Origin: Blastobasis lacticolella
Lineage: Eukaryota > Arthropoda > Insecta > Lepidoptera > Blastobasidae
Reading direction: 5' to 3'
Length of the DNA: 64,000 nucleotides
Assembly: GCA_905147135.1 (NCBI GenBank)
Contig: LR990046.1
Span: 14,662,501-14,726,500, forward strand
Shown: positions 35,401 through 61,728 of the stretch, piece after piece
Position numbering within the stretch: the first letter of the stretch is position 1
Layout: each line of letters begins with the position of its first letter
Notes under the pieces: generated by a model
Told to the model about the DNA's origin: nothing
The model's database searches: none
The model's input: only the letters and a program-made list of their open reading frames with translations
Program-made: the position numbers and the translations under genes

Positions 35401-35807
35401 CAAGTTGAGACGGTATATTTTAGTTCAGAAAGTGTCTTTAGAGAGTGGATATAATAAATCAAAGGCACCCAAATATTCTCTTCAAAAACTGAGAAACAGT
35501 TAAGTGAATGAGGTGTTGGGTAGCTTTTGGTTAGGTGTAGGGTAAGGTAGGGGTACGAACGAAGTCGCGCCGGCCTACAAGTTTTGATCTAAAAATTTGA
35601 ATACACATTCATATTCGATACAAACAGCGTATCGTTTAATTTCATCGTTTCATTAGACTATTCTGTAGGTGTTCTTTTGCTCCATTCCGTTCGTCATACA
35701 GGGTTTACTGGCGCGGCGTGATTGAGGCTGGGTTGGCGGCGAGACGTCACTTGATTTAATTAAGAGCCGCTATACCGCCCGTACCTCCTGTCCCAAAGCC
35801 TGCACGG
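32401..35807. other. Non-coding with GC-rich islands
   Basis: GC-rich islands lie at about 32800-32890, 33040-33065, 34235-34275 and 34890-35110. The last contains CCGGTTAATTAATTGGCGGG and TAATTTATTAATTAATCTGC nearby. No gene is supported. The right end is the island into which Transib inserted. Confidence 0.45.
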
Positions 35808-35812
35808 CGCCG
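35808..35812. repeat. Target-site duplication, left copy (CGCCG)
   Basis: CGCCG directly abuts the left CACAGTG terminus and is repeated immediately after the right terminus at 38568-38572. A 5-bp GC-rich duplication is the known signature of Transib insertion. Confidence 0.95.
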
Positions 35813-35851
35813 CACAGTGTAGGAATTTCGTGATCTAGCGGGATTTAAATC
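35813..35851 (+). repeat. Left terminal inverted repeat, RSS-like
   Basis: Heptamer CACAGTG (35813-35819), a 23-base spacer (35820-35842), then ATTTAAATC (35843-35851). The heptamer equals the vertebrate V(D)J recombination signal consensus. The terminal nine bases match the RSS nonamer at about five positions. The transposase is expected to bind and cleave here. Confidence 0.92.
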
Positions 35852-36111
35852 AAAATATATTTTTGTAATGATTGATAATATGGTACCACTTATTTATGCC
35901 TAAGACCCTATTTGTTACAGCTACATATTAGAAATTCTTGTAGGTAGGTTAAAAAAAATAATAAAAAATGTTAAAGTGGGTTGATAATAATCGTTGTATC
36001 CTTACAATACGATCAACAACATTGGAGTGTTATCTTCACTTGAAATTACTAATCATATTAACGTACAGTCTTGTTTATTGGTTTATTATCGTATTGCGTA
36101 TATATTTAAAG

Positions 36112-36356
36112 GTAAGTTAGAGTGTATTATTCTTAAATAATAGTTAAACATAGATCTCATAATATCATTTGAAAGCACAGTTAAATTTTGCATTTTTTAG
36201 AAATGATTTACAAATTTAAAGGAGTGTAGAAAAAAATGACCTGAATATCCCGATGTTATTGTTGTTTTATTTTATAGCTTAGACTCCTAACTTTTGAGAA
36301 CAATTGATGCAACTTGCGATTTTGTGCGACCGTCATACATTTTTTTCGGTTTTCAG
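36112..36356 (+). other. Candidate intron in the Transib 5' leader
   Basis: A consensus donor (AAAG|GTAAGT) at 36111/36112 and an acceptor with a pyrimidine-rich tract (TTTTTTCGGTTTTCAG) ending at 36356 would remove 245 bases. The spliced message would place A|ATGACC, the transposase start at 36358, directly after the junction. The in-frame upstream ATG at 36307 would then be intronic. An ATG at 35968 opens a frame of 48 codons to the donor but does not continue in the transposase frame. This is inferred from splice motifs only. Confidence 0.4.
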
Positions 36357-36357
36357 A

Positions 36358-38397
36358 ATGACCGCCGAAATTACAAAAAAACATATTTTTGATATTTGGA
36401 CCTCAACTTCCAAAAATGAGCGAATTGATGCTGTTTTAGCTTTTATAAAAGGTCATTACCCTCAATTAATATTTTTGGAAGGTGCTATAAATGACATTAA
36501 GTTTTTTTTGAGAAGGTTATTTAACAAATTTAATGAAAAATGGACAGCATGCGGTAGGCATCGTGAACGCTTTTTAAACAAGAATTTGACTTGGTTGAAT
36601 GAGTGCATCAAATTACCAGATAATGTTTTAAATGAAATACCATCTACATCTGGCCATTCACCAGGTAGACCATACAAAAGTTTTGAAGAATGCTGCGATA
36701 AAACTAAAAAACGAAAAGTTCAGAATCTATTATTGTCTACGAGCCCTGAGGAAATTACGATTGCACATGAATGTAATCTTCGAAACGCAGGTAAACGAGA
36801 CTCTGCAGCTATCGTAAAAGAACTTTCTATGAGTTCACCTAAGAGAGGTTCCATCATAAAAAGCGTACTAAGAAGAATGAACAGTGAAAGCGTTCAAGTG
36901 ACTCTGTCGACCGATGAAGCATTAAGCATGATGGTAGATGCTGATTTATCAACCTATCAGTATGAGATTATACGTCAAAGGATAAATAAATTGGTTAAAA
37001 ACTTGTTGCCGTCTTATGACAGAATAAAAGAGGCTAAGAAAAAATTTTATCCTTCCAATAAAACCGTTACAGAATCAACGGCCACGTGTGAACTGCAATC
37101 ATTAGTTGATCACAGTATCGAACGACTTTGTGTGACTCAGAAAGAGGTTCTTGGGTCTATTGAGTGCTTGCAAAGTGGAGTAAAGGAACTATCACTGTTA
37201 ATTAAGTGGGGTTGTGATGGAGCACAACAAAAATCATATAAACAAAAATTTTATTCAGAAAATAAATTCGATGAAAACCTTTTTAGCATATCCATGGTAC
37301 CTATTCAGTTAAGGTTAAACGTTGAAGAGAATAATATCATAGTTTGGCAAAATCCAGCCCCTTCATCAACAAGGTACTGTCGGCCAATTAGACTTAACTT
37401 TGCTAAGGAGACTACTTCACTGATTAAAGAAGAGGTTGACGCGATACAACAACAAATCGATATGTTATCGGCCGTTGAAGTAAATCTAGATAATTTAAAT
37501 TTTTTAGTGAAACCTGTTTTTATGCTGACTATGATAGACGGCAAAATATGTAGTGCTCTATCTAATGTTTCATCCTCATCTCAAACTTGCTACATATGTG
37601 GAGCAAAACCTTCAGAGATGAATAAACCATATCTTATTTCGATGAAACCACTCGATCAAACTGCACTGTCTTTTGGGCTTTCTCCTTTACATTCCTGGAT
37701 AAGATTTATGGAGTGTATACTTCATATTGCCTACAGACTCGATATAAAAATGTGGCAAGTGAGAGGTCAAGAAAATAAAGATAAGGTTCAGACAAGAAAG
37801 ACACACATACAAACACGATTTAGGAATGAATTGGGTTTATTAGTGGATTTGCCGACTCAGCAAGCAGGTAATACCAATGACGGTAACACAGCACGCCGAT
37901 TTTTTAGAAGTGCTACTATCACTGCTGATATTACCGGGGTAAATTTAGAATTAATAACGAGGTTTCGTATAATTTTAGAAACTCTCGGGTCCGGTTTTAC
38001 TGTTGATTTAGATTCCTTCAATAGTTACACAGAAGAAACTAGAAACATATATCTTAGGGAATACCCATGGTATAACATGCCAGTAAGTGTGCACAAAGTT
38101 TTATTTCATGGGCGTGATGTTATAGCTTCGTGTATTTTGCCGATTGGCCAGTTATCGGAAGAGGCACAAGAGGCTAGAAACAAAGATAACCGAAGATATA
38201 GAGAATTCTTTACTAGAAAAACGTCACGAATAGACACCAATACCGACCTACTTAATAGGCTTCTTATATCGTCAGATCCCTTTATATCTAGTTTAAGGCT
38301 TATGATGAAGAGAAAACGAAGTCCTCTAGATCCTGAGGTTCTAAAATTGCTTTCTGTGCCAACCGTGAATGAGGCTGAAACTGAACTTATTGACTAA
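36358..38397 (+). CDS. Transib transposase (RAG1-core homologue), 679 aa
   Basis: A DDE recombinase that would excise the element and join it to a GC-rich 5-bp target. The start is chosen at MTAEITKK. In-frame ATG 36307 would add 17 residues, but it lies before a good splice acceptor. By-eye alignment to the RAG1 core is clear. D287 in KWGCDG equals RAG1 D600. D394 in MIDGK equals D708, with spacing 107 against 108. E605 in SEEAQEARNK equals E962. The zinc ligands also align: C411 and C414 in CYIC equal C727 and C730, and H579 and H584 in HKVLFH equal H937 and H942. VWQNPAPSS..YCRPI and NDGNTARRFF align with further RAG1 core blocks. The N-terminal ~250 residues are basic and should bind the terminal repeats. 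The frame has no stop or shift. Length fits full-size Transib transposases. Stop TAA is at 38395-38397. Confidence 0.93.
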   Translation: MTAEITKKHIFDIWTSTSKNERIDAVLAFIKGHYPQLIFLEGAINDIKFFLRRLFNKFNEKWTACGRHRERFLNKNLTWLNECIKLPDNVLNEIPSTSGHSPGRPYKSFEECCDKTKKRKVQNLLLSTSPEEITIAHECNLRNAGKRDSAAIVKELSMSSPKRGSIIKSVLRRMNSESVQVTLSTDEALSMMVDADLSTYQYEIIRQRINKLVKNLLPSYDRIKEAKKKFYPSNKTVTESTATCELQSLVDHSIERLCVTQKEVLGSIECLQSGVKELSLLIKWGCDGAQQKSYKQKFYSENKFDENLFSISMVPIQLRLNVEENNIIVWQNPAPSSTRYCRPIRLNFAKETTSLIKEEVDAIQQQIDMLSAVEVNLDNLNFLVKPVFMLTMIDGKICSALSNVSSSSQTCYICGAKPSEMNKPYLISMKPLDQTALSFGLSPLHSWIRFMECILHIAYRLDIKMWQVRGQENKDKVQTRKTHIQTRFRNELGLLVDLPTQQAGNTNDGNTARRFFRSATITADITGVNLELITRFRIILETLGSGFTVDLDSFNSYTEETRNIYLREYPWYNMPVSVHKVLFHGRDVIASCILPIGQLSEEAQEARNKDNRRYREFFTRKTSRIDTNTDLLNRLLISSDPFISSLRLMMKRKRSPLDPEVLKLLSVPTVNEAETELID

Positions 38398-38528
38398 CAA
38401 AACAAATTTTTTTCATACCGCTTTTTTTTTAATACAACTTCATTTTCTATCACTATTTATGTATTTTTATTTATTTAAATACCATTCAACATAATTATTT
38501 AACTACATCTATTTTTAAATTCAATTTG

Positions 38529-38567
38529 GATTTAAATCCCCCTAGATTGCGAAATTCCTACACTGTG
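38529..38567 (-). repeat. Right terminal inverted repeat, RSS-like
   Basis: On the minus strand: CACAGTG, a 23-base spacer, ATTTAAATC, identical in layout to the left end and differing from it at three spacer positions. No canonical AATAAA was seen between the transposase stop and this repeat. Confidence 0.92.
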
Positions 38568-38572
38568 CGCCG
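38568..38572. repeat. Target-site duplication, right copy (CGCCG)
   Basis: Exact copy of 35808-35812, immediately after the right CACTGTG terminus. Confidence 0.95.
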
Positions 38573-41500
38573 GGTTAATTTCGAACAGAGTCGTTCCACG
38601 GGAGATTTATTTCAATATTGAACCCGTCCTCCAGGTGTCGTTACCCCACGTCTTACGTGTGGCCATGTCTTTTACGATCTTGTCATATTCATTCACCCCC
38701 GCCTGAAACACCACCTATCTATGTACATTTAAGAGTTAATGCTCTCTTACGGTACCGGCTTGTTAATATCATGAATTTAACAGCGGTATACCGTAATAAA
38801 TAACTGTTGCTTATTTAAACATTTAATTATGCCCAAATTGCTATTTCAACCGCAAACGTGGCGATTAAGCGGTGAAAGTCCGAGTCTTGTAAATTTTCTC
38901 TCTCCGCGCAGACTTTTATTTCAAACAAGACGAGGTAGGTAGTTGCTTTTTCCACAAAAATGTTAAATTGGTTTGCGCACGGTGGGATCTTTTAAATCCG
39001 CTAGTGATTGCATCGTTTAGCTGAGATAGTGGTCATATTTCAGACCGCAACCTTCGAGAGGAGGCTAACGAATGGACTCCCATTTGTTTAACCAGACCGA
39101 CTCCTATTATCACAAACATATTTGTAAAAGTAATTTTAGTTTGTCCACGTGCGTGATAATATCAATCAAGTATGTAACGTAAGTGTTTAATATTGAAACA
39201 GTTTCATTACGTTGACAAACGTAAAACGTTAGCTTTGCAATTTCAATTAATTCATCCTTTATAAATAAACATAAGGAAGCTTGTCGGTCTAAGTAACAAG
39301 TTGAATACATTTATAGAGAATTTTTACGATGGAATAATGCCTATAGTAATTAGGGGGAAAAATTTTGAATTTTTTCTGTTTGGCGTCTAATGCGCTACTC
39401 GTGTCGGCCGTCATCACGCGTCGCGGGAGAAGTTCGTTATTTATTCACAGACTTTCAACTCGGCCGCTTTTACCAGCTTAAGACCTCTGCTGCTATTTGA
39501 GTAGAACCGGGAGCCGTTTTAGACGATCCACTTTATAGAATATCCTCCATCCTTTATGCACCAGGTGTCGTTCGGTGATGGTCACTTCTATTTCAGTGTT
39601 TTACCTATCGTCCATTGCTTATTTGTACTTTTCCTATATCGTACCGACTAGGGAAACTTATATGGAATCACTTATATCGGTGTATACTTGACTGGGCTAG
39701 CATGGGAGATATGGTCCGTTTTCGAAAGTGGTGTAATAAAATAGTTGGTTAATATGACGGGCCACAATCGGCAATCACATATTGGCCAAAAAGCGTCCAC
39801 GCGGTGTTGATTGTGACATTGTGTAGAGGGTGGCGGCGGCGCAGCGCGGGCGCGCGCCGCGGCCGCCACCGCCACCACCCGCATTTGTGATGCAAATTGT
39901 CGCCTCTGCCGCCGCGCTTCATGCCTCGCGCCTTGCCTGCCACAACCTCCGTAATTATTGTGAAAAATATTCATTTGTCTGCCTTTACACCTGCATTTAC
40001 ATAATGCAGCGGCGTCTGAACTTCATCAAGACTTTGCCCACTGTACAGTAACAAGATCGGTTGAGAAACTATTGACTTACGTTACGATCCGATAAAAACT
40101 ACTCGTGAGATAAGTTCCTCAATATCGTTCTTTTTTTCTTCTGCCTTGGGTAATCTGATATCACCGTTGCCTTGCCGACCCGTTAGTCGTAATCGCGGGA
40201 ATTCAATAGCTAACTGGCTGCAAGAAGTCTGTGAGAAGTTTCATGTGAACCTGTAGACGCAGACACCCGACGAACGTTATCATATTTCAAACGATTTCGC
40301 AAAACGAATAAATAAGAACGGAGGCAAGAAGCGTGCGGTGAAACCGAGTCGAAGCGTGGGTATTAGAAACGCTCCGATTACCGCGCTGAGACTGCCGCGG
40401 CCAAAGCGCCTGCGAGCGCGACGTCGTCGGGAGCTTGTTCCATAGTTCCTGACTGTCACTATTTGGAATTAAAAACGCTATGCAAAAATTTCCTTAAGTT
40501 TACGGCCAAAACTTTCCACCCTATTTTCCATAGTCCGAACTTAGATGCTCAACATTCTCAGTTCCACGAGCCAACTACTGTAAACTTGTTGCATCGTGTC
40601 GCTCGTACCACCACATCCGTTGCGGATTGTCTATATTTTACGACAATATTCCAAAATTTGTGTTTCTATTGTCTCGTCATTTATGGTTTTCGAAATTTGG
40701 TAACAATTCTAATTTCGTCCATGATGTTAGACCGCAGTAAGTCGGCACTTTGTCGGTGCACGTCTTTGCGGTCATGAATTGGCATCCATTATAAGCGTAT
40801 TAAGGGAAAGGTGAGAAGTTTGCCATTGGCGGACAGCGCAGCGGTACCGCTGCTGGCTTGACCGCGTTCCACTAACGGTATCCACTCCGAAGTATTTCTC
40901 TGGCTGCGGCGCGTGGCACACTTCGTGCGTGCATTCACCTCGCTGCCGGTCGCCATCTCCGGCTCCACTCCGCGAAGCACACACTAGGTGACACGAATTA
41001 CATGCCTACTTGCAACAGACGATGCGATGCTTCGTTTTATTCTAGATGTAGAGCACAACCTTATGAACAGAAATAGTATTTTAAATAGATTAGTTTTTAT
41101 TTTTAAGTTTTTATCTCAAAGATGAGTCCATAAAAACTTCCGTCATGGTCTGGCTAACGCAGGCCATCTTAGTTGGTTAGTGTAATTAGACACCCGTAAT
41201 TTTATTTCACTAGCCGCCGCGATTCATGGTCCGTATATTATTTACCAGAAGCAACCTCCGCGCAACTCTCTCTCGAAAATTCAAAATATAACGTTTCCGT
41301 GTGGCTGATTATGATGACTCGAAAACGTCTTACGATGTAAAACTTAAACGAGGGCTCAATGAATTTGGATCGCAATACCGTTACATGCCGCGGGTCGTCG
41401 CTCTGTTCGTTGAAGTAAAAGGCAATAGTCGGTATAATACGAGTGTAGCTATACATTTGCATACTTAAATTTTGAAGTGTGATCTTTTTGTTTTAGGAAC

Positions 41501-50148: not shown

Positions 50149-50695
50149 CAATTGTTCCGGTCGCAGCAGGCGGCGGCGGCGGGCGGGCAGGCCGCGGCGG
50201 CGCAGCTGCAGCTGCTGCAGCAACAGCAGCAGCAGCAGTTCCAGCTGCAGCAGCAGCTGGCCGCGCAGCAGGCGTTCCCCGGCGGGCCGTACGTGATAAA
50301 CGCGGGGCAGGAGGGCGCGCCGTACGTGAGCGCGCTGATCGCGGGCGTGCCGCCGTACTACGGCGTGGCGGCGCCGTGGGGCGTGTACCCGGGGCTGGTG
50401 GCGCAGCCCGCGCAGCAGCAGGCGCAGCAGCCGCGCCGCCCGCTCACGCCGCAGCAGCCCGAGCAGCCCGTCAACGGGCAGGGCCAGTACGTGATCCCGT
50501 ACTACGACCCCGGCTCGCTGGTGATGGGCGGGCGCAACGGCACGCCGCTGCGGCTCGTGTCGCCCGGCGGCGTGCTGGCGCCGCGGCAGTACCCGCCCGC
50601 CGCGCACCCCGCGCCCGCGCAGTCCGCGCCCACCGCGCAGCACCCCGCGCACGCGCAGCACCCCGCGCAGCATCCCGCGCACCAGCCGCAGCCAG
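50149..50695 (+). CDS. pum: pumilio, internal exon: Q/A/P-rich region before the RNA-binding domain
   Basis: First of nine exons that together encode about 657 residues of Pumilio, a sequence-specific RNA-binding translational repressor acting in the cytoplasm. The acceptor TGTTTTAG|CAA gives phase 0 and the donor CCAG|GTGAGT gives phase 1. The translation starts QLFRSQQAAAAGG, has a poly-Q run, then PYVINAGQEGAPYV, PYYGVAAPWGVYPG, PRRPLTPQQ, GSLVMGGRNGTPLRLVSP. All are in the same order as in fly Pumilio (SYVINPGQEAAPYM, PYYGVAPWGMYPG, PRRPLTPSQQ, GSLLMGGPRTGTPMRLVSP). It ends in a His-Pro-Ala-rich repeat. This part of Pumilio is low in complexity and carries repression activity in flies. 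Third codon positions are strongly G/C. The exon before it is not visible in the window. Confidence 0.95.
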
Positions 50696-51827
50696 GTGAG
50701 TCCGGTCTCGCGCCGCCTCTACACACCGCACACACGGAGACACGGTTGTGTATATGTAAATGTGTGAGAAATATTTTGCAACTTCACATAACCGAAAATT
50801 ACGAACGATTTCAATTAACATTAACTTTCCAATACCATTTTCATTGTAACGCAAATGTGTTAAAAATATTAATTACATGGAATATATCAATTTGATTTTA
50901 ACCAGGTTACGTATTATTTTCACTTTAATATCAGTAGATAGCAGAATACCTACATACTAATTCTAATTGTATTGTTTTACAGTTGTTTACTTGTAGATTT
51001 ATTGCATAGTCACGTCCATGACATGAGTTGATTGTACGTAAATAGAGACATGTTATACCCGGCGTGTGTGCCTCGAGATATACTTCCGCTAAGAAATAAC
51101 AATTACTAATTAACTATGCTGAAGTAAATTATATTGAACTACGCCGCATCAAGGGCGTACGTCGTACATATGCCATTTCTCGGGACACAAAGCTTGGGAT
51201 TTTACAACTTTTTATGTGTTTGATAGCTAGGTTGAAACGTCCATGTTACTACTTTTTGCTCTATAATTTTTTGTAACTAGTTCCCCATAATGTAGTAGGT
51301 GTACATCCATACTTCATTAATGTAACACCAACTGTATATACATACGACTTATCTCATCATTTCGTAACATTTTGTGGATAAATTATTAAAATTATATCTA
51401 GTTTTTATTTTGCTACTAAATGCGTGTACCTTCCAATTCTCATTTCATAAGATACTGTTCGATGTTATCAATTCGATGTTACTTTAGTCAATTCCATAAT
51501 TTGGAGTTTTTGTCTGTACCGTACCATTAGTGTAAAATATGAAGCAGATTAGTTTTAAACGGATACGGGTCTCATGCATCGATTTTATCATAGAAAGTAA
51601 ATGAGGATAATTCACTCGAAATATTTGAAAACGAAGGAAAGAAATTCCTTCAAAAAATTTCCTCCATCAGTTCGATCGGAGCGTTTTAAACAGTCGATGC
51701 AGGTGCCCCGTGCCGTGTTATGTACAGAGCCGTCGGCGCCGTCGGTGTCCGGACGGCGCGGCTCGGCATGTTGTAAATACTAGCGCGTGTACAGGTGTCT
51801 CTGGGCCGGGGCCGGTGGGTGTTGCAG
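50696..51827 (+). other. pum: pumilio intron
   Basis: AT-rich intron of 1132 bases, GTGAGT...TTGCAG. A GC-rich patch at 51720-51770 has open frames on several strands but no splice context that would make it an exon, and the flanking exons already join in phase. Confidence 0.8.
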
Positions 51828-51996
51828 GCGGGGGCGCGCGGCGCGACTCGCTGGAGTTCGCGGGCGGCGGCGCGCTGCAGGAGTACGCGCGCAAGTGGGG
51901 GCCGTCGCCGCTGTCGCCGCCGCTGGGCGCCGCGCTGGGGCCCGTCGGGCTGCGGCCCGTGTCCGCCGCGCCGGGCGCCGAGACCGCCAAGTACAG
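51828..51996 (+). CDS. pum: pumilio exon with RRDS and SAAPGAE.AKY motifs
   Basis: Acceptor GTTGCAG|GC (phase 1) and donor TACAG|GTGCGG (phase 2). It encodes GGGARRDSLEFAGGG, KWGPSPLSPPLG and SAAPGAETAKY. Human PUM1 has SRRDSL and SAAPGAEAKYR in the same order, so this linker is conserved even though the sequence between is not. The arginine after KY is completed across the next junction (AG|A). The donor is GTGCGG, slightly off consensus. The serine in RRDS is a plausible phosphorylation site, which is inference only. Confidence 0.93.
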
Positions 51997-54249
51997 GTGC
52001 GGCAGGGACCACTGTCGCCGGTGCGACCACTGTCGGACGGTGCGACGAGGACGCGTTCGTTTTCGGAGGCTACAGCCGCACTGGCTGGTGGCTAGCTTGA
52101 GCTAGTGACAGACGTCCCGGTTTGGCTGGAGCCGATCGCCGTCGGTTGCAGTTGATAATCATCCTTACGCTGTATAAAGTTTCAAAAGTGACTTCATTTT
52201 GTATCGTAAGGATTAGTATCGACTGCGACTGACGGTTGGTCGGAGCTCCAGCCAAATCGGAGCGTCCGTTTCTAGTTTTAGCGTCTAGCTGCTTGGTAGG
52301 CGCCTAGGGGGTAGCGAAGTAATACCAACGTTGGAGGATGTGCGCAGCGGGCCGCATTGCGCGCTTGTCGGCTTCGCTACTCGCTGGGCTCTAAGCAAGC
52401 TGATTGTCAGTGCGGTACGGCCGCGGCCATCGTCGCCTTAGGGGCGATACTCATCGGTGAACATTCTCTTTGCCCCATTTGTTTTACGTGCGTTTGTTGC
52501 ACTGGGTACTTTCTTTCGCAAACCAAGCGTTCTTACGGAAGCGGTTTATGAAAATTCGAAACAGCAATATATATTTTTTTTCGGGATAAAGCCCGACCAC
52601 TCGTTTCCACCGATGCAACTCCTATTTAGCAAGGATTCAGATTCAACATCCAGTAAGAGCCACCGAGCCTTGACACTTGCATGCCCGAGGGCAAGTTATT
52701 GTGATCCGAAACAAATATAACGTGATATAGCATCATTAGCAAAGCCAATTTCGCCGGTGAGTATCGTCTCTCTCGCGAAAGCACAGGATTTTTATCGGGG
52801 TACTACATTTTATCTAATGAGTCAGGACCCTAAGTTATACCATTTCCCGTTGGCACACATGTACTGTGTACCATAAATATAAAATAAACGAAATACTTAA
52901 AAAATATCCAGTACAGCAAGATTCCTTTACGAACCGGTTCTCATTTTGGCGACTTCTGTAGGCACTTATTTACGACTAACGTACTTCGCACACAACGATA
53001 TTGCAATTCAAACCCTTTCGTTCAATTCCCCGTCCGACTAATCGGTCTCGGTTCATCCATTTTCCAGTTCGTAAATATCCTGGTGCGTCGATTGCCATAT
53101 TCGTCCATTTCCCAATTCTGATTATATCGCGATATTATGTCTAATACTAATAATCGGTCCAAACTCAACTTTTGTAAAATAAATTACGTTGAGATACCCT
53201 ATGAATTCAATGTAATTGACATTAATTTAAGTAGAGTGTATTGTACCATTGAGATAACTTTCCATTGTTTGTTTATGGAAATTTTGTTAAACAGGTTATT
53301 TTCAAACAACTACGGGAAATAGTATAACCTCTGAATCTTAGAGCCCACAAGATAAAACATGATGTAAATTTTTTATAAACAATTCCTAGGAATTATTTTC
53401 GACAGTTTAAGCATGAATACAACAAATTTACTATAAGGCATTTGATGTTCATATTCATTGATCAATGTACAGCAGACTGCGGTCGTCGATGTATATTTTA
53501 CTAATCATTAATTGTTTCGTTGTCCGGTACACAGATTGTCTAGGTAAGTAACAATAATTCGTGTACAGTATCACATTGACGGTTCGTCTCTATTTCTGGT
53601 CATTTAAAGAGCTGCGGCTCGATCCCCAACATCTTGCGATGGTCGCTCTCGCGTGACTTGAAACTCAAGTTGTGTTTGCCAATATTGATCTGTTATATTT
53701 TATACGTCTCGTGCATAGAAATGGCAGAATGCATTTTGCTTGTTTGCGCCAAATTCCACCTTGACATGGGAAAGTGTCGAATACAAATATGGCCCTGCCT
53801 TCCTCCACGGACTGACACGCGATGTTCCCAAACAACAAGGAAACTTGCTAAATAATAGACTCATAAATACTATGCACCATTTACAATTTTTTATATTTTA
53901 AATTAAATAAGAACAAAGAATCTAGACTCTGTGTAACGAGTTTAATGACCTTTTGAACTTGAAAATACAATGTCATTGAACTACAACTGCCTTATATGAT
54001 AATGACTGAATTAGCGTCACTTAGGTATATGTGTATACTGTATACAGTAAAACCGCCTTGTACATACATTACTTTTTTTGTGAAACGTAACTTGTAAATG
54101 ACTGTATTGTCTCTGCCGGTGTACAGTGTACCGATATGTCGCCATTATTTAGCATGCACACTGATTTGTTTGATCGTGAACTGTATTTGTACATGGCCGC
54201 GGTTACGCTGCGAGTGCATACCCTTGAATAGTGGTTGTTTTCATTGCAG
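51997..54249 (+). other. pum: pumilio intron
   Basis: Intron of 2253 bases. Its first 100 bases contain imperfect repeats of GACCACTGTCG. The rest is AT-rich with no recognised repeat or gene. Confidence 0.75.
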
Positions 54250-54347
54250 AGCTGTCAGCAGTTTAGCACAAAATCTCACGTCGAATGGCATGTTCGGCTC
54301 TTCATCCTCGTTACTCAGCAAACTGAGCGGAGTGGGCACCATCTCAG
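54250..54347 (+). CDS. pum: pumilio short exon, Ser-rich linker
   Basis: Acceptor CATTGCAG|A (phase 2 in) and donor CTCAG|GTCGGT (phase 1 out). Its 98 bases encode AVSSLAQNLTSNGMFGSSSS then LLSKLSGVGTIS. The MFGSSSSLLS core corresponds to fly NNMFGSNSSIFS and to the human SASSASSLFSPSS segment. The donor GTCGGT is non-standard, but it is the only nearby choice that keeps the frame into the next exon: G plus AG gives Glu. Confidence 0.88.
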
Positions 54348-54733
54348 GTCGGTACACAGACCCTGTAAATATACGACACAAACACTAACCAATGTATCAT
54401 ATCGTGACTGACTACTGCACTCGTCACCTAACCCCTTTATGTAAATGACATACCATGATCTATGTCCTTTTGTATATGTAATGTAAATATTATTTAAGCT
54501 CCCGCAGAAGTTCTGCGTTGAGTAAATTATTATTGTATTTTGTACGACCAACTAACTGATTAGGACAGGTAACCAAATAAAATAGATAAACATTCTTGAA
54601 ATGTTTGCGAATAGTCACGTGTTGACTGCAAGAAATGTATATTTCAAAGTCCAGCTGATCCCACGTCTGACTGACCACATCCGACCTCGAAATATGCTGT
54701 CGTTACCTATATGCGGCTTATCGGCTCAAGCGT

Positions 54734-54815
54734 CACTTTTTGCCCGACTGCCAAAGAAGGGTTATGTTTTTCGCGCGTATCTTGTTTGTATGTATGTTTG
54801 TAAATCCCCATACCT
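54734..54815. repeat. Dispersed repeat fragment, also at 8711-8785
   Basis: TTTGCCCGACTGCCAAAGAA, GGGTTATGTTTTTCGCGCG and a TATGTATGT stretch match the fragment at 8711-8785. It lies within a pumilio intron. Confidence 0.6.
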
Positions 54816-54973
54816 ATTGAGTGAGGTATAAAAATGAAGAACTTAATGAGCTGATTTCATAAATATATATAACTTGTACTTGAAAGTAGTTTGGAAAAAC
54901 GAATGGCATCAAAAGTAAAGCTTTTGCAAAAAGTCGTATTACGTCATACAAACGACTAAAAAGTTCAAAGTTT

Positions 54974-55229
54974 AAAAACTAAAAACCCCGACTGTTATTA
55001 AAAAACTGAATAGTTTAAAACAAGCCGATTGTTGGAAGTAAATGTTAGTTTAATTAAACTTGAAAGCTCTTGGGGCCCCATTTTTATATATAGAAATTAA
55101 ATGGGACCCCCGCCTGCTTTCAAGTTTAATTAAACATTTGTTGCACTACATACCTACACCCATTTATTTCAACTTTCGGTTTTTTTAAACTTTTCAGTTT
55201 TTTATAGCATTCGGAGGTTTTAGTTTAGG
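54974..55229. repeat. Imperfect palindrome of about 256 bp, hairpin or MITE-like
   Basis: The left arm reads AAAAACTAAAAACCCCGACT, AAAAACTGAATAGTTTAAAA, then TTTAATTAAACTTGAAAGC and GGGGCCCCATTT. The reverse complement of the right arm reads ACTAAAACCTCCGAATGC, AAAAACTGAAAAGTTTAAAA, an extra ~25 bases, then TTTAATTAAACTTGAAAGC and GGGGTCCCATTT. The two arms meet at about 55081-55101, so a transcript could fold into a long hairpin. Confidence 0.75.
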
Positions 55230-55617
55230 AAGTACTTTTTTTTGACAGATTGATATTTGACAGTAGCGTCTTTTACGGTTGTTGTTTTTACTTTATTACT
55301 TTTTGTGATTATGACGCGTTTTTAAGCTGGTGGAGAGCACGCTTTAACTACGTGATGCATGAACGTATCAGTCGTCAGTATACGCAGCGACAGCGTACTT
55401 TGAGCTGCGGTTGGTCAGTCCTTAATGTGGAGACTAGAGTTGTAAAACCAGAAATATCGTCACGTGGTGCCGGCTCCCGAAACTGTTACATCAGTCAAGT
55501 GAACTATAAAAATTTAATAAATTAATTTGGACGGGTTTCAAAAACATAGTCCTCCTACCCAACAATCGAAGCGACTGACAATAAGATGGGGTGAATGATT
55601 GTGTATTCGATCATCAG

Positions 55618-55816
55618 AGCTGGTGGGCGGCGGCGTGGGCTCCGTGGGCGGCGTCGGCGGCGTGGGCGTGGGCGTGGGCGCGCTGGTGGGCGACAAGCCG
55701 CCCGCGGGCCGCTCGCGGCTCCTCGAGGACTTCCGCAACAACAGATTCCCCAACCTGCAGCTGAGGGACCTCGCCAACCACATCGTGGAGTTCTCGCAGG
55801 ACCAGCACGGCTCCAG
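55618..55816 (+). CDS. pum: pumilio exon: Gly/Val-rich linker and start of the Pumilio domain
   Basis: Acceptor ATCATCAG|AG (phase 1) and donor TCCAG|GTGAGT (phase 2). It begins [20 protein letters not shown], a simple G/V repeat. It then gives [20 protein letters not shown] and [16 protein letters not shown], almost identical to fly and human Pumilio. The last segment is most of PUM repeat 1, whose RNA-contacting SRFIQQ is completed by the next exon. The repetitive 5' part uses GGCGTGGGC units and may vary in length between individuals. Confidence 0.96.
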
Positions 55817-56645
55817 GTGAGTGCCGCTACCACCGTCGCTACTATTGAGGCAATCGCCACTGTCGGATAGGGAGGACCCAGTAATTACGTATTTAGATGA
55901 GGAATTCCTTGTATCCCGGAAAGTGCGCCGAGGCGCCACATTGTTAGCGAAAATGAAAAAGCAATAAATTTACGTGACCAATGATGCGAATTTTGGACGA
56001 GTTATAGTGGAAAAGGTGTCAGTGGGTCGAGCAGTTTAGTTCCGTCAAATCTAATATGTACTTACGAATATTAAAAAGTAAACATATTAATTGCGTATTC
56101 CGAATTTTAATAAATGTAATTCGAACGTGATGTGTAATGAATTCGTGAAATTCGTTGTTTTGGTTTACATCACGTACTAATTGGGGGCGATACCAGTTCT
56201 GAGGGACCTTAGAATCTAAAAATTTCAAATTTTGTTCCAAATAATGACGGCCGCGGTAATGGATAATCTCCAAACCGCTTTTAGCGAATTATAGAGAAGT
56301 TTATGCCACGCACAGCTCCCGACGAGAACAACTCGAAACAACATGGGACGACAGGCTGAGGCAACGCGTCTCAGGTTGAATCGCGCTAAATGGCTCACAC
56401 CGTGGTAGCCTCGGGATTAGTCAAGCCTGAGACTGAGGCGCGTACGCACCTGAGGCAACAGGATAAGCCTTGTGTGTCTCGCCCGAGGCTGCCTCTAGTC
56501 CGTAACGCACTTCTATAAAACATATTTTGTGCGCTTTGCTTCCCGTCTTAAGCAATCAAGGGACCATCTAGAAAATTGTTATACAACCATAGTGATAGAT
56601 GCCCCGCCGGCGCATAGCGGTAATTATTATTATCCATAAACTGTA

Positions 56646-56930
56646 GGAGCCTCGGCAACCAAGTGATTAAGGTATCAGACTCGTAAGCGAGAGGCGGGTT
56701 CGAAACCCACTGCGACCATTTACAGTCGAGTTCATTAATATGTGAGCATTACCAAGGCTTCAAATATAAATGTACATAATAATAATAAACTCACATATTA
56801 ATGTACTCGACTGTACTAATGACTCTTTTCTGTGTTATGTACATCAGTTAAATGTTAACCGATGCTCGGTTCCTCGTGCATGAGACCACATCCGGGACTT
56901 TAACGCCGAGATGATAATGATGGTTATCCA
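56646..56930 (+). mobile_element. tRNA-derived SINE interrupted by a small MITE
   Basis: The head shows ATCAGACTCGTAAGCGAGAG and a good B box (GGTTCGAAACC at 56697-56707). The A-box region is mutated (GGCAACCAAGTGATTA). After GCGACCATT the SINE is interrupted at 56721-56815 and resumes with CTAATGACTCTTTTCTGTGT, matching GTACCAATGACTCTTTTCTA in the intact copies. It then follows the family body in shortened form to a GATGATAATGATGG tail. Confidence 0.78.
56721..56815. mobile_element. Tiny MITE (about 95 bp) nested in the SINE
   Basis: Left arm 56721-56746 (TACAGTCGAGTTCATTAATA then TGTGAG) and right arm 56790-56815 are inverted repeats with one mismatch in 26. TA at both outer ends could be the target duplication, giving a 91-bp element. 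Intact SINE copies lack this insert at the same place, so it is an insertion and not part of the SINE. Confidence 0.7.
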
Positions 56931-57405
56931 TAACCTGTATTATTTCAATGTATTTAGGCTATGCGTCCACAACAGAATCAGCTCGTACGAAGCTTCAGTA
57001 TTAACAAAATGCTATGAACATGTGTAGATGCACAGCTTTAGGTTTCATAGTAGATTCATTGTCGCTATGTAGGGCGGCTGCTGGAGACTCAAACGAAATG
57101 ACCGACTGCGAGATAGTAACTAACTTCATTAATTAATCGGATGATTAAATGCGAGTAAACATAATGTAATACCTAAGTATGTATATCAAATATGTCTCTA
57201 CGTTCACCTCTACAACTACACACAGTAGCTACCTTATTCTTCAAGCGGAACTGTCCACAACAAATCATGAACTGTTTCCCCGCAGAAATAAATGGCGAAT
57301 CTCACTCTTCAGACCAACAGTATCATGACTTTGATTCCGAATAGCTCTTAGATGTAGAAACGAAATAATGTGATTTATGTTTTAAATCAATACTTTTGTG
57401 TCCAG

Positions 57406-57574
57406 GTTTATACAACAGAAATTGGAGAGGGCCACAGTACAAGAGAAACAGATGGTGTTCAATGAAATCATCGGCGCGGCGTACAGCCTAATGACTGATG
57501 TGTTTGGAAACTATGTAATACAGAAATTCTTTGAATTCGGCACTGCTGAACAGAAGACGACATTGGCACAAAAG
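57406..57574 (+). CDS. pum: pumilio exon: end of PUM repeat 1 and repeat 2
   Basis: Acceptor TGTCCAG|G (phase 2) and donor AAAAG|GTACGT (phase 0). It encodes [20 protein letters not shown], then [20 protein letters not shown] and [23 protein letters not shown] (repeat 1) and NYVIQK (repeat 2) carry the residues that contact adenine 8 and uracil 7 of UGUANAUA in the standard PUM code. Both are unchanged from fly and human. Confidence 0.97.
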
Positions 57575-58269
57575 GTACGTTTGCTCAGATCAATTTGTTT
57601 TACCTTCAAGTAGCAACTGGAGTGTTTGTTCGTTTCGACACTTGAAGAACTCCGCAGCTCGACAATACGTCTTACTAAGTAAAATTCGACGTGACTCTGT
57701 AATTTACGACATTTAGGATTTTCGCAAATATTTAATTGCATGCTAGCATCATACAAGGAAGAGGATGCTCAGTAGGAAAACGAACTTTGTCAGACGCCTG
57801 CCTTGATTGACCGCTAGGATTGATAATGATGGAGTGGAAAAATCGGGGATAGGGCTTTGCTAACTGAGTGGTACTAATGCTATATACATAATTATAGTAC
57901 AAAGATGAAAAGACCATCTACACTTCAACTAAAATAATCCAATGTGGAGAGGATAGATGAAATACTGCTTACGAAAGGTATATAGAATGGGAGGCTCGGC
58001 AGAGGGCGCCCGAGGAGGACAATAGTGATCAAATAAATAAAACCTTCACCACAGGTCAAGAGTAACCCCAACCGGCGGTCAAGAGTAACCCCAACCGGCG
58101 TATATGTATGAGACGATGCATGAATCAGGAACATAGCAATCGTGTATGACTCAGGATTGTAGATTTTGGCACGCAATAGCCTCTATCTCTAAAACGGTTG
58201 TGAGTGTGTATGTTGATCATCAACGATTTTGCTCTGAAACGGATACTGGAACGTGTGTGTCTATTCCAG
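57575..58269 (+). other. pum: pumilio intron
   Basis: Intron of 695 bases. A tandem 23-bp duplication lies at 58055-58100. A short LINE-like scrap is visible near 57945-58020 (AGAATGGGAGGCTCGGCAGA...CCCGAGGAGG). The acceptor is TATTCCAG. Confidence 0.75.
58055..58100. repeat. Tandem 23-bp duplication
   Basis: Two perfect adjacent copies (58055-58077 and 58078-58100), each starting GTCAAGAGTAACC and ending AACCGGCG, within a pumilio intron. Confidence 0.92.
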
Positions 58270-58428
58270 GTTCGCGGCCATGTGCTAGCACTAGCGCTGC
58301 AGATGTACGGTTGCCGTGTTATCCAGAAGGCATTGGAATCCATTCCCGGTGAGCAACAGCAAGAAGTAGTACGCGAGCTTGACGGACATGTGCTCAAATG
58401 CGTCAAGGACCAGAACGGCAACCATGTG
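58270..58428 (+). CDS. pum: pumilio exon: PUM repeat 3 and first part of repeat 4
   Basis: 53 codons, phase 0 in and out. Acceptor TTCCAG|GTT and donor CATGTG|GTGAGT. It encodes [20 protein letters not shown], then [20 protein letters not shown] and [19 protein letters not shown] is the repeat 3 contact set for adenine 6. NH(V)VQK of repeat 4 is split by the junction, with VQK coming from the next exon. Conservation with fly is near complete. Confidence 0.97.
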
Positions 58429-59566
58429 GTGAGTTTTGTAAATCTTGCGATGAAATCTCTAGGATTTGTTTCATTTCATGTTTATGGTATAGGTACACTG
58501 TCCCTTTTTTTTTGTTTATGGTATAGGTTTGGTTTGTCTTCCATCTACCTCTGGATTAGTCGCCTTATGAGAAACCTGTCAGTGCAAGAGTGTGATGTTT
58601 TGTCGGACACTACATGGCTATCATGTAAAAAAAATCAAGAATGTAATCATTGCGTGTGCTCGTAACACTTGTCATATTTGCGGTGTCTCCGTCATAACCG
58701 TATCACAAAAATTCCCATAGGCTATAGCTATAGTTATTGTCTGGTTGGTAGGCGTGCTTGTGTTCATTGTTACAGTGTGGGAAGTTAACGACGCTTGCAG
58801 GTTTACACCAAAAATTGTATAACGTATACACGTCACTATAACATGGTACTAACATTTTCATTTAAACGTAAACACAAAGCAGCCGAAAGTCACCATGTCG
58901 TCTCTTTCACATGGTATAGCGAAACAGAAAGACGGCACGTGACTTTCGGCCGTGGTTGCGCTTACGCTTAGCTGAAAATGTCAGTAGAATAAAGTGCCTG
59001 ACCTCCTGCATTGCTCTCTTGTTCGATAATTGCTGCCTGGTACATAAATACTGTAACAAGTCACAAGAACAAGCAGTCATAGCCAAAATGAACATTACAC
59101 CTTGAATGTAGTCTTCGGGTCCTTATGAACTGCTTCAATATTCAAAGTATCAAAAACAAAAACATCAATAGGAAACACGAATGCGCCCTTATATAAAAAA
59201 TAATCATCTTGCCGTTAATGTCCCAGTTGTGCTCTCGCGCACGAGGGCCTGGGGTCCGCCTTGACCATGATCCAGGGTTTGGCAGATCAGTTAATTACAG
59301 TGTAACGACTGCCATCTGACCTCCGTGACCCTGCTACCAGGGTAATTTGAACAGAGTGGATCATGGTTACACATTCAGTCACTTGAATGTCGCATGAGTC
59401 GCCTATATGATAGTGCAAACTGCATCAAAATCCCTTGCGTGGTTTGGGAGGATTCCCCTGCTACCAGGGGAGCCTGACCAGATTGTATCATTATTACACA
59501 TAACGTCGCCCGAATGTGCAGGTTTGATCCCTCCCGAATGAGCCCTAACGTGCGAACGTATTCCAG
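58429..59566 (+). other. pum: pumilio intron ending in SINE-derived sequence
   Basis: Intron of 1138 bases. The last ~370 bases are made of SINE and LINE-tail fragments (59200-59540), leaving only about 25 bases between the last repeat match and the acceptor ATTCCAG. Confidence 0.75.
59200..59540 (-). mobile_element. Two SINE fragments with a LINE-tail scrap between them
   Basis: 59200-59400 matches the 3' body of the SINE (TAATCATCTTGCCGTTAATG, GTCCGCCTTGACCATGATCC, GCAGATCAG, CTGACCTCCGTGACCCTGCT). Then CATCAAAATCCCTTGCGTGG (59422-59441) resembles the retroelement tail at 7490. 59453-59540 is a second, overlapping piece of the SINE body (CCCTGCTACCAGGGGAGCCT...GAATGTGCAGGTTTGATCCC). The tRNA head is missing from both. 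Confidence 0.7.
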
Positions 59567-59761
59567 GTCCAGAAGTGCATCGAGTGCGTGGAGCCGACGG
59601 CGCTGCAGTTCATAATCAACGCGTTCGCGGGGCAGGTGTACGCGCTCTCCACGCACCCGTACGGCTGCCGCGTCATCCAGCGCATACTGGAGCACTGCAC
59701 GTCCGACCAGACCGCGCCCGTGCTCGCCGAACTACATGCGCATACAGATCAACTCATACAG
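59567..59761 (+). CDS. pum: pumilio exon: end of repeat 4, repeat 5, start of repeat 6
   Basis: 65 codons, phase 0 in and out. Acceptor ATTCCAG|GTC and donor ATACAG|GTATGC. It encodes [40 protein letters not shown], then [20 protein letters not shown] and DQLIQ. CRVIQR is the repeat 5 contact set for adenine 4 of the UGUA core. The exon is GC-rich although the sequence just upstream is retroelement-derived. Confidence 0.97.
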
Positions 59762-60580
59762 GTATGCGGGGACAGAGAGAATGCAGCGTTTGCGATATAG
59801 CTCGTGGGAGTAGCCTTTTTATCGCACATGTTGTCGCGTTTGTTACCACTGTTAGTACATTTTTACTTCGATATTTTGACGCAGTTGCAAGTGTCATGGT
59901 CACAAGTAGACTCTTAACTTATACTAACCGTGGTAATAAATCCGATAACATGTGCAATGGAAGTGTGGTGAATAACCACAAAGTCTTAAAACCTGAGTAG
60001 CCTTTTGTTTTGTTCAACCGTACGACGGGTAAATGTATTATTGCGATGGAAGATGCGATGGATTGGCTAGTTTAGGTTTTTGGGTGTAGAAATGTGCGAA
60101 GACGACGATAGCTTTATGGTGCGACGACCTACGCGAAATTGCTTTTGCACGAATTAGGAGTCGCTGTCTGGGTACGAAAGTACGAACCTCGCATGTGGCG
60201 CGCCTTGATGTCCAGCAGTGAAGTTTAAGATGATAATACGTTAAAGGCTTTCATCCTCCGATAAAATTTAGTTGCCTGATAAAATAATATACTACCAAAT
60301 TAAATCAAATTATAATTCTTCACTTTATATTAGGAAACAAGTATGTTATTAGACTGATATGTTTTATATGAGGATTGATCAATCTACTCGGACACAATTT
60401 GTGAAACAGTCCGTAACGAGTGTGGGATCGTTCAGGTCTAAAATGTCAAGCGGTCAATGTCGCCCTATTCTCAGTCCCGCAGCGGGGTCAGCACTCTGCA
60501 TATTGAACATTTTGCACTTTAACGTTATCTAGTCTGTCTGACTACATAATTAACACGATACCTTCCCCCCGGGCACCCAG
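59762..60580 (+). other. pum: pumilio intron
   Basis: Intron of 819 bases, GTATGC...GGCACCCAG. TGGCGCGCCTTGATGTCCAG near 60198 is a possible retroelement scrap. Nothing else was recognised. Confidence 0.75.
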
Positions 60581-60786
60581 GACCAATACGGCAACTACGT
60601 GGTGCAGCACGTGCTGGAGCACGGCGCGGCGGAGGACCGCTCGCGGCTGGTGGCGGCCGTGCGCGGGAAGGTGCTGCAGCTCTCGCAGCACAAGTTCGCC
60701 TCCAACGTGGTGGAGAAGTGCGTCTCGCACGCCACGCGCAACGAGCGCGCGCTGCTCATCGACGAGCTGTGCGGCTTCAACGACAA
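60581..60786 (+). CDS. pum: pumilio exon: PUM repeats 6 and 7
   Basis: Acceptor CACCCAG|GAC (phase 0) and donor GACAA|GTGAGT (phase 2). It encodes [20 protein letters not shown], then [20 protein letters not shown] and [26 protein letters not shown] (repeat 6) reads uracil 3. SNVVEK (repeat 7) with its glutamate reads guanine 2. The exon ends CGFND, corresponding to fly CTFND in the loop between repeats 7 and 8, a region I recall being implicated in partner-protein binding in flies. Confidence 0.97.
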
Positions 60787-61496
60787 GTGAGTAACTACAC
60801 CGTGCATAGAAATTAAAATTATATGTGTAAATGGAAAATGGACGCAGCGTGGGTAGGTGGTGGTGGACGAGGTGAACCGACGATCTGGTAAAGATCGCAG
60901 GCACCAGCTGGATGCGGAAGCCACAGGACCGGCCTGCGGAGATCTCTGGGGGAGGCCTATGCCCAGCAGTGGCTGTCTTTCGACTGATATGATGAAATAG
61001 AAATGCGATAAGGGACATCGACTATCGAGAACGCTTGTCGCTATCTCGGCCGCTACTGCGCAATAACTGTACTACAGCGCAATAAATGTCAAGTGTCAGA
61101 TACAAAAAAGGCAAAAGATGTATGTCATCTGCATGGCGACAATGTCACGCGCGCAATAGGATTTCTATTGACTTATTTTGGTTTCTTTAATTCGATGACA
61201 AACGAGCGGAATCAGCCCAACCCACCTGATGGAAAGCGGTAACTGTCACCCGTAACATCTACTATTTATGCACTTAGGCTACCATGTAACAAAGAACGAG
61301 GATAAATATGCCTTGTGCCTAGGAATGCGCTGGCTACCTTATCCTTCAAACCGGAACACAACAATGCCGACGTTGTTCCTTGCCGGCGGAAATAAATCAC
61401 ACGTGATACTCTCCCAGGCTTGACTCCTCAGACTTGATAGACTTTACCATTTGATAACCTTGCCTTGCACAAGCCTCTGACCACACCCCGTTGCAG
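60787..61496 (+). other. pum: pumilio intron with a LINE 3' fragment
   Basis: Intron of 710 bases, GTGAGT...GTTGCAG. Its first part, about 60838-60990, is a LINE tail (see separate entry). The segment around 61200-61410 (AACCCACCTGATGGAAAGCG, CTACCTTATCCTTCAAACCG) looks like another decayed repeat. Confidence 0.75.
60838..60990 (+). mobile_element. LINE 3'-terminal fragment
   Basis: The + strand frame reads DDLVKIAGTSWMRKPQDRPA then, across a shift, LGEAYAQQW. This matches the C-terminus common to many lepidopteran LINEs (W.DD..K.AG..W...AQDR..W..L.EAYVQQW). It ends in GGGGGAGGCCTATGCCCAGC AGTGG and a TGATATGATGA tail. Confidence 0.65.
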
Positions 61497-61728
61497 CGCA
61501 CTGCACGTGATGATGAAGGACCAGTACGCGAACTACGTGGTGCAGAAGATGATCGACGTGGCGGAGCCGACGCAGCGCAAGGTGCTGATGCACAAGATCC
61601 GGCCGCACATCGGCTCGCTGCGTAAGTACACGTACGGGAAGCACATAATCGCGAAGCTGGAGAAGTTCTTCATGAAGGCGCCGGAGCTGGGCCCCATCGG
61701 GCCGCCGCCGCCCAACCCCGTGCTGTAG
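61497..61728 (+). CDS. pum: pumilio terminal coding exon: PUM repeat 8 and C-terminus
   Basis: Acceptor GTTGCAG|C (phase 2, completing Asn) to stop TAG at 61726-61728. It encodes [20 protein letters not shown], then [40 protein letters not shown] and [22 protein letters not shown] is repeat 8, reading uracil 1. [13 protein letters not shown] is the conserved C-terminal cap. The tail [10 protein letters not shown] resembles the ends of human PUM1 (LGPICGPPNG) and fly Pumilio (LGPIGPPTNG), and lacks the Ser/Thr-rich insert of the fly protein. Confidence 0.97.

Follow-up and report, generated by a model that had tools for sequence, protein, structure and literature searches.

HzTransib of Helicoverpa zea, whose transposase has a solved chain (6pqn, 6pqx), is reported to be 3,518 bp long with a deduced protein of 489 amino acids (PMC1852546). 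A second described member, Transib1, invaded Drosophila melanogaster in 2013-2016 according to PMC12974806, which describes recent spread as identical copies with a 5-bp target site duplication (TSD), activity documented in populations and internally deleted copies. For H. armigera, the Transib row of a table in PMC7764229 reads 40, 32 and 188, the last being the copy number. Among vertebrates, CACAGTG is given as the consensus heptamer of the recombination signal sequences (RSS), the long version of which has a 23-bp spacer (PMC8289069). Here we describe a Transib in a 64,000-nucleotide stretch of the lepidopteran Blastobasis lacticolella, hereafter the window (C7:14662501-14726500 of a 577 Mb assembly of 45 contigs). 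It is very probably a full-length element of the autonomous type that entered a CGCCG site by cut-and-paste, has five close copies elsewhere in the host genome and belongs to a recently mobile family. The basis for this is its ends, TSDs, open frame and residue correspondence, together with the copies at different sites, the empty-site paralogues of one copy and a pair of identical copies. The category of Transib elements is already well known and what is new is this family member. Like Transib1 it has spread recently as identical copies with 5-bp TSDs, whereas its activity is judged from one assembly.

The element spans 2,755 bp (35813-38567) between exact CGCCG TSDs, read from the sequence at 35808-35812 on the left and 38568-38572 on the right. 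The left terminal inverted repeat (TIR) of 39 bp on the plus strand (35813-35851) consists of the heptamer CACAGTG (35813-35819), a 23-bp spacer and the 9-mer ATTTAAATC (35843-35851). The right TIR, also 39 bp, lies on the minus strand (38529-38567) and has the same heptamer, spacer length and 9-mer; the other five genomic copies have ATTTAATTC as their right-end 9-mer. The two TIRs are identical at 36 of 39 positions, with mismatches at 19, 20 and 27, and can be extended to 44 bp with 4 mismatches. As these three mismatches are common to all six copies, the other five having a fourth, they are a trait of the family and not a sign of decay. Transib ends characteristically start with CAC, and CACAGTG is present at both ends of every copy. 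An 18-bp end motif, sought at up to 3 mismatches, had two occurrences in the window where 0.04 were expected, both being the ends of the element, and no further copy was found within the 64 kb. The 9-mer ATTTAAATC was also set by eye against the RSS nonamer ACAAAAACC; they agree at 5 of 9 positions, which is no clear resemblance, and we do not claim a likeness.

The transposase is encoded on the plus strand by an open reading frame (ORF) of 679 amino acids plus stop (36358-38397, ATG at 36358), which sits in a 699-codon open frame; in none of the element's five remaining frames does the longest run without a stop exceed 95 codons. The protein matched HzTransib (6pqn) at E 2e-113 and was 42% identical to it in a structural alignment with 6pqx, which bears out the Transib identity proposed in an earlier note on this DNA. 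As the Pfam RAG1 model gave 22.2 bits, below its 25-bit cut-off, the assignment to Transib is based on HzTransib and not on Pfam. By homologue comparison and match to HzTransib, the catalytic residues are Asp 287 (37216-37218), Asp 394 (37537-37539) and Glu 605 (38170-38172), and homologue comparison likewise gave the zinc ligands Cys 411 and Cys 414 (37588-37599) and His 579 and His 584 (38092-38109), all on the plus strand. Residue counts were taken over the 120 homologues listed of 449 matches. D287, C411 and C414 were kept in all 120, H579 and H584 in 119 each (one gap each) and E605 in 118 (two gaps), and D394 was found in 115 with N in the other five. The same earlier note had given these residues at these positions, along with the exact CGCCG duplications, the 39-bp ends with three differences and the 679-codon open frame; all of these are present, and the homologue counts and the structural alignment agree with the residue positions.

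The window element and HzTransib both belong to the Transib superfamily, and they have in common the DDE triad, the zinc-binding residues, symmetric ends that resemble the heptamer and a 5-bp GC-rich TSD. The window element differs in its lengths (2,755 bp and 679 amino acids) and in about 170 extra N-terminal residues, including an NBD-like region, that are not present in the solved HzTransib chain. Its similarity to HzTransib would place it in Subgroup II of the Transib subgroups described in PMC9435367, which are distinguished by features of the zinc domain and of the C-terminal tail. The closest of the proteins listed was P0001, encoded on a 2,782-bp contig of a public assembly; it matches 96% of the transposase at 64% identity and is the sister of the transposase in the tree. 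As no protein among the best 120 of the 449 matches exceeds 64% identity, we know of no donor.

A search of the host genome at the DNA level gave 28 matches that include six full-length or near-full-length copies, here called by their contigs (C7, the window copy; C10; C4; C3; C23; C18). The remaining matches were ends or a piece of these six, or diverged relatives at 64-75%. Pairwise substitution among the six ranged from 0 to 1.79% with gaps excluded, so the prospect raised earlier, that only old, diverged copies would exist elsewhere, does not describe this genome. The C10 and C4 copies, on different contigs, were identical across 2,755 bp. In the orientation of the element the TSDs were CGCCG (C7), CGTCG (C10), CGCCG (C4), CGGTG (C3), CGCCG (C23) and CCACG/TCACG (C18), that is, 5-bp, GC-rich and perfect in five of six copies, with a mismatch in one. 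Among the twelve flanks the sole match between copies was 51 bp at 92% (C10 right and C18 left). Genome-wide, the end motif at up to 1 mismatch occurred 14 times, as the 12 ends of the six copies and 2 singletons, and its reversed control 0 times. No miniature derivative with ends at up to 1 mismatch was found, more divergent ends not having been sought; no older family member was found in the host genome, and viral contigs scanned for other copies contained none. Since the copies are few and neither a miniature derivative nor an older member was found, the family appears to have arrived or been activated recently. The C23 insertion is flanked by short inverted repeats, of 39 bp (85% alike) and 24 bp (92% alike), as if a palindromic repeat had been hit.

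An empty site was recovered for the C3 copy, whose host is a long interspersed nuclear element (LINE) with endonuclease and reverse-transcriptase domains. When its flanks were joined with a single TSD, all 163 bases were matched at each of the 40 places scored out of 1,387 candidates, one at 100% and the rest at 99%. The joined flanks of the interrupted LINE form one 895-codon frame. As this frame is uninterrupted and at least 40 places match the 163 bases at 99-100%, the LINE was young when the C3 copy inserted. Near-identical copies with different flanks, the identical C10/C4 pair and the C3 empty-site paralogues all support the recent movement that had been suggested for the element.

The family has therefore moved recently and open-frame copies remain. 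A possible alternative, to which we give a smaller but substantial share of belief, is that the family is recent yet now inactive, its open copies having lost enzyme function by missense changes and the identical pair having been moved in trans by an unseen copy. Several observations weigh against our reading at this point. The 679-codon frame is kept in C7, C10 and C4, and the other three copies carry stops, two of them with a frameshift also: in C3 the damage is an inserted base plus a stop, in C23 it is a stop, and in C18 it is the insertion seen in C3, a stop and deletions. The open copies in turn all depart from conserved residues. At codon 230 (37045-37047, plus strand) the window copy alone has Phe, where the five other genomic copies and 118 of the 120 listed homologues have Cys and the remaining two have S and I. 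In the C10/C4 pair, K295 is replaced by Glu (111 K, 6 R, 2 H and 1 C among the homologues) and P499 by Arg (111 P, 8 V and 1 I). In addition, a genome search with the flank of the window copy, which is unique, found no empty site for it. The one-base insertion shared by C3 and C18 lies in an A run at codon 6, where common ancestry and a repeated slip are indistinguishable.

The substitutions also bear on this alternative. Six are private to the window copy in the 2,592 columns compared, three of them within the ORF and all three nonsynonymous. By hand counts, the branch between C7/C10/C4 and C3/C23/C18 carries 1 nonsynonymous and 3 synonymous changes, compared with 32 and 8 on all remaining branches (Fisher p 0.043), the outer ratio being about that expected without constraint, for which the nonsynonymous share is 0.73-0.79. 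The sample is small, and the pattern is compatible with constraint during mobility and its absence after insertion. Against loss of function in the family stands the recency of mobilisation: the substitution rate in a butterfly is 2.9e-9 per site per generation, and with zero differences the C10/C4 pair would have split less than ~1.9e5 generations ago. Moreover, RAG1 has Leu at the position aligned with residue 230, so Phe 230 need not be fatal, and with S or I in 2 of the 120 listed homologues a residue other than Cys may permit function there. The suggestion that the element is possibly active fits the family better than the window copy, the sole one of six with Phe 230.

The other explanations fare far worse. 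That the identical pair arose by segmental duplication or misassembly rather than by transposition could be argued from the 0 differences in 2,755 bp, and it is very unlikely given that the two copies are on different contigs with different 5-bp TSDs and that their flanks showed no similarity beyond chance over 1,500 bp each side (best E 0.045, 17 bp). A domesticated transposase gene retained by the host would account for the long stop-free frame, and is more improbable still in view of the intact ends and TSDs, six dispersed copies, separate decay in each broken copy and outer branches with no sign of constraint. A RAGL (RAG1L-RAG2L) transposon, with which the catalytic core and an NBD-like region are held in common, can be practically dismissed, as a single transposase ORF and no second ORF of at least 80 aa, hence no RAG2-like gene, was found in 35500-39000 and similarity is far higher to HzTransib than to RAG1L (6b40). 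With the RAG1 core and the RAG1L of ProtoRAG the window element shares the fold, the catalytic and zinc residues and the RSS heptamer CACAGTG; it differs from them in having no RAG2 partner and near-symmetric ends, and identity in the structural alignments was 12-18%.

For the full-length, recently mobile Transib that we favour, a cycle may be proposed by analogy with HzTransib and RAG. A transposase dimer would bind the ends that start with CACAGTG and nick them, flanking hairpins would follow and the element would be excised, after which it would be inserted at a GC-rich target whose strands are cut 5 bp apart. Residues 102-158 (36661-36831, plus strand) make up the NBD-like region, which may contact the ends at their inner portion. 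This region begins at a GRP motif (G103-R104-P105), N-terminal to the core, with R104 in 118 of the 120 listed homologues and gaps in two, and PMC9435367 describes such a motif as a feature of Transibs with an NBD equivalent. In hhalign, the region aligned with the RAG1 NBD over 29 columns (25 for mouse) and beat 150 of 150 shuffles; after masking of GRP the signal was lost, with a score of 9.8 against 13.9-14.7 for the five best shuffles. In hmmsearch, the zebrafish NBD scored 10.4 bits against 9.8 for the top of 5,000 shuffles, and that of mouse was outside the best eight. Sequence alone thus gives weak support for homology to the NBD. Ahead of this region, residues ~1-82 (36358-36603, plus strand) are predicted with high confidence to form a helical fold, for which nothing convincing was matched among the chains compared.

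On the fullest interpretation, which we consider rather doubtful, the element would be a live Transib, newly arrived among at least five Transib lineages of this genome that are all young together. Its transposase, equipped with an NBD, would read each end in two parts, the RSS heptamer and, after a 23-bp spacer, the conserved 9-mer, which would amount to RAG-like two-part recognition without RAG2. Being young and combining open copies and matched ends with an NBD-like region, the Transib offers a system for asking if this region reads the inner ends; PMC8289069 names the same question as unsettled for the RAG1L domain of amphioxus.

The host genome was also searched at the protein level and 65 of 450 candidates were scored. 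Of these Transib stretches 38 were stop-free, several with only partial protein, so stop-free copies are not rare in this genome; this, with the live Transib1 described in PMC12974806, makes the earlier statement that few intact Transib copies are described a poor starting point. The many stop-free copies suggest, from this one genome, that lepidopteran genomes may be a practical source of RAG1 relatives. Among 24 further loci (L041-L064), 14 had a matching end pair and an equal 5-bp TSD, equality being required by the screen, and 13 of the 14 TSDs start with CG. In four of five Transib groups the longest pairwise matches were 97.8-99.9% identical, and in the fifth (C23), which includes a local duplicate, 97.2-100%. 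In a tree of 132 proteins, comprising only relatives retrieved with the window element, 12 host-genome proteins were scattered over five positions, and at least 5 changes are required by branches with good support.

A second and larger Transib family comprises loci L056-L064 (C17, C6, C8, C25, C16, C2, C26, C30). Its frame reaches 719 codons, its ends are CACAGTGGGCTGAAAATCG, its TSDs mostly start with CG and its longest pairwise matches are 97.8-99.9% identical; its nearest protein among the 120 listed for the window element is ~44% identical, no search of its own having been made. A third young family, L043-L046 (C30, C16, C19, C11), is ~2,870 bp long with ends CACAGACTGGTATTTGG and 98.5-99.3% identity, the matched stretch being stop-free in three of four. 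In two families other than that of the window element, represented by L042 (C24) and L043 (C30), the ends read CACAGTG or CACAGAC, 23 bp and CCAAAA, which by eye resembles the nonamer's CAAAA and lies at the spacing of an RSS. L053 and L054 (C23:1555233 and C23:1559628) are broken Transibs separated by 4.4 kb; they agree at every position over 3,640 bp, flank included, which indicates local duplication.

Outside the element, pumilio coding stretches lie downstream on the plus strand (50149-61533, first to last motif recognised), identified by the PUF repeat in Pfam and by homologues; the other downstream stretches we take to be pumilio from motifs of Drosophila Pumilio. For six joined exons the top named proteins (up to ~800 aa) were from the butterflies Danaus, Brenthis, Colias, Maniola, Leptidea and Parnassius, at 74-79% over 66-73% of the query, which marks the host as lepidopteran. 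No pumilio coding exon earlier than 50149 was recognised in the window, and as this first stretch is mid-protein, the element is probably located within a long pumilio intron upstream of it.
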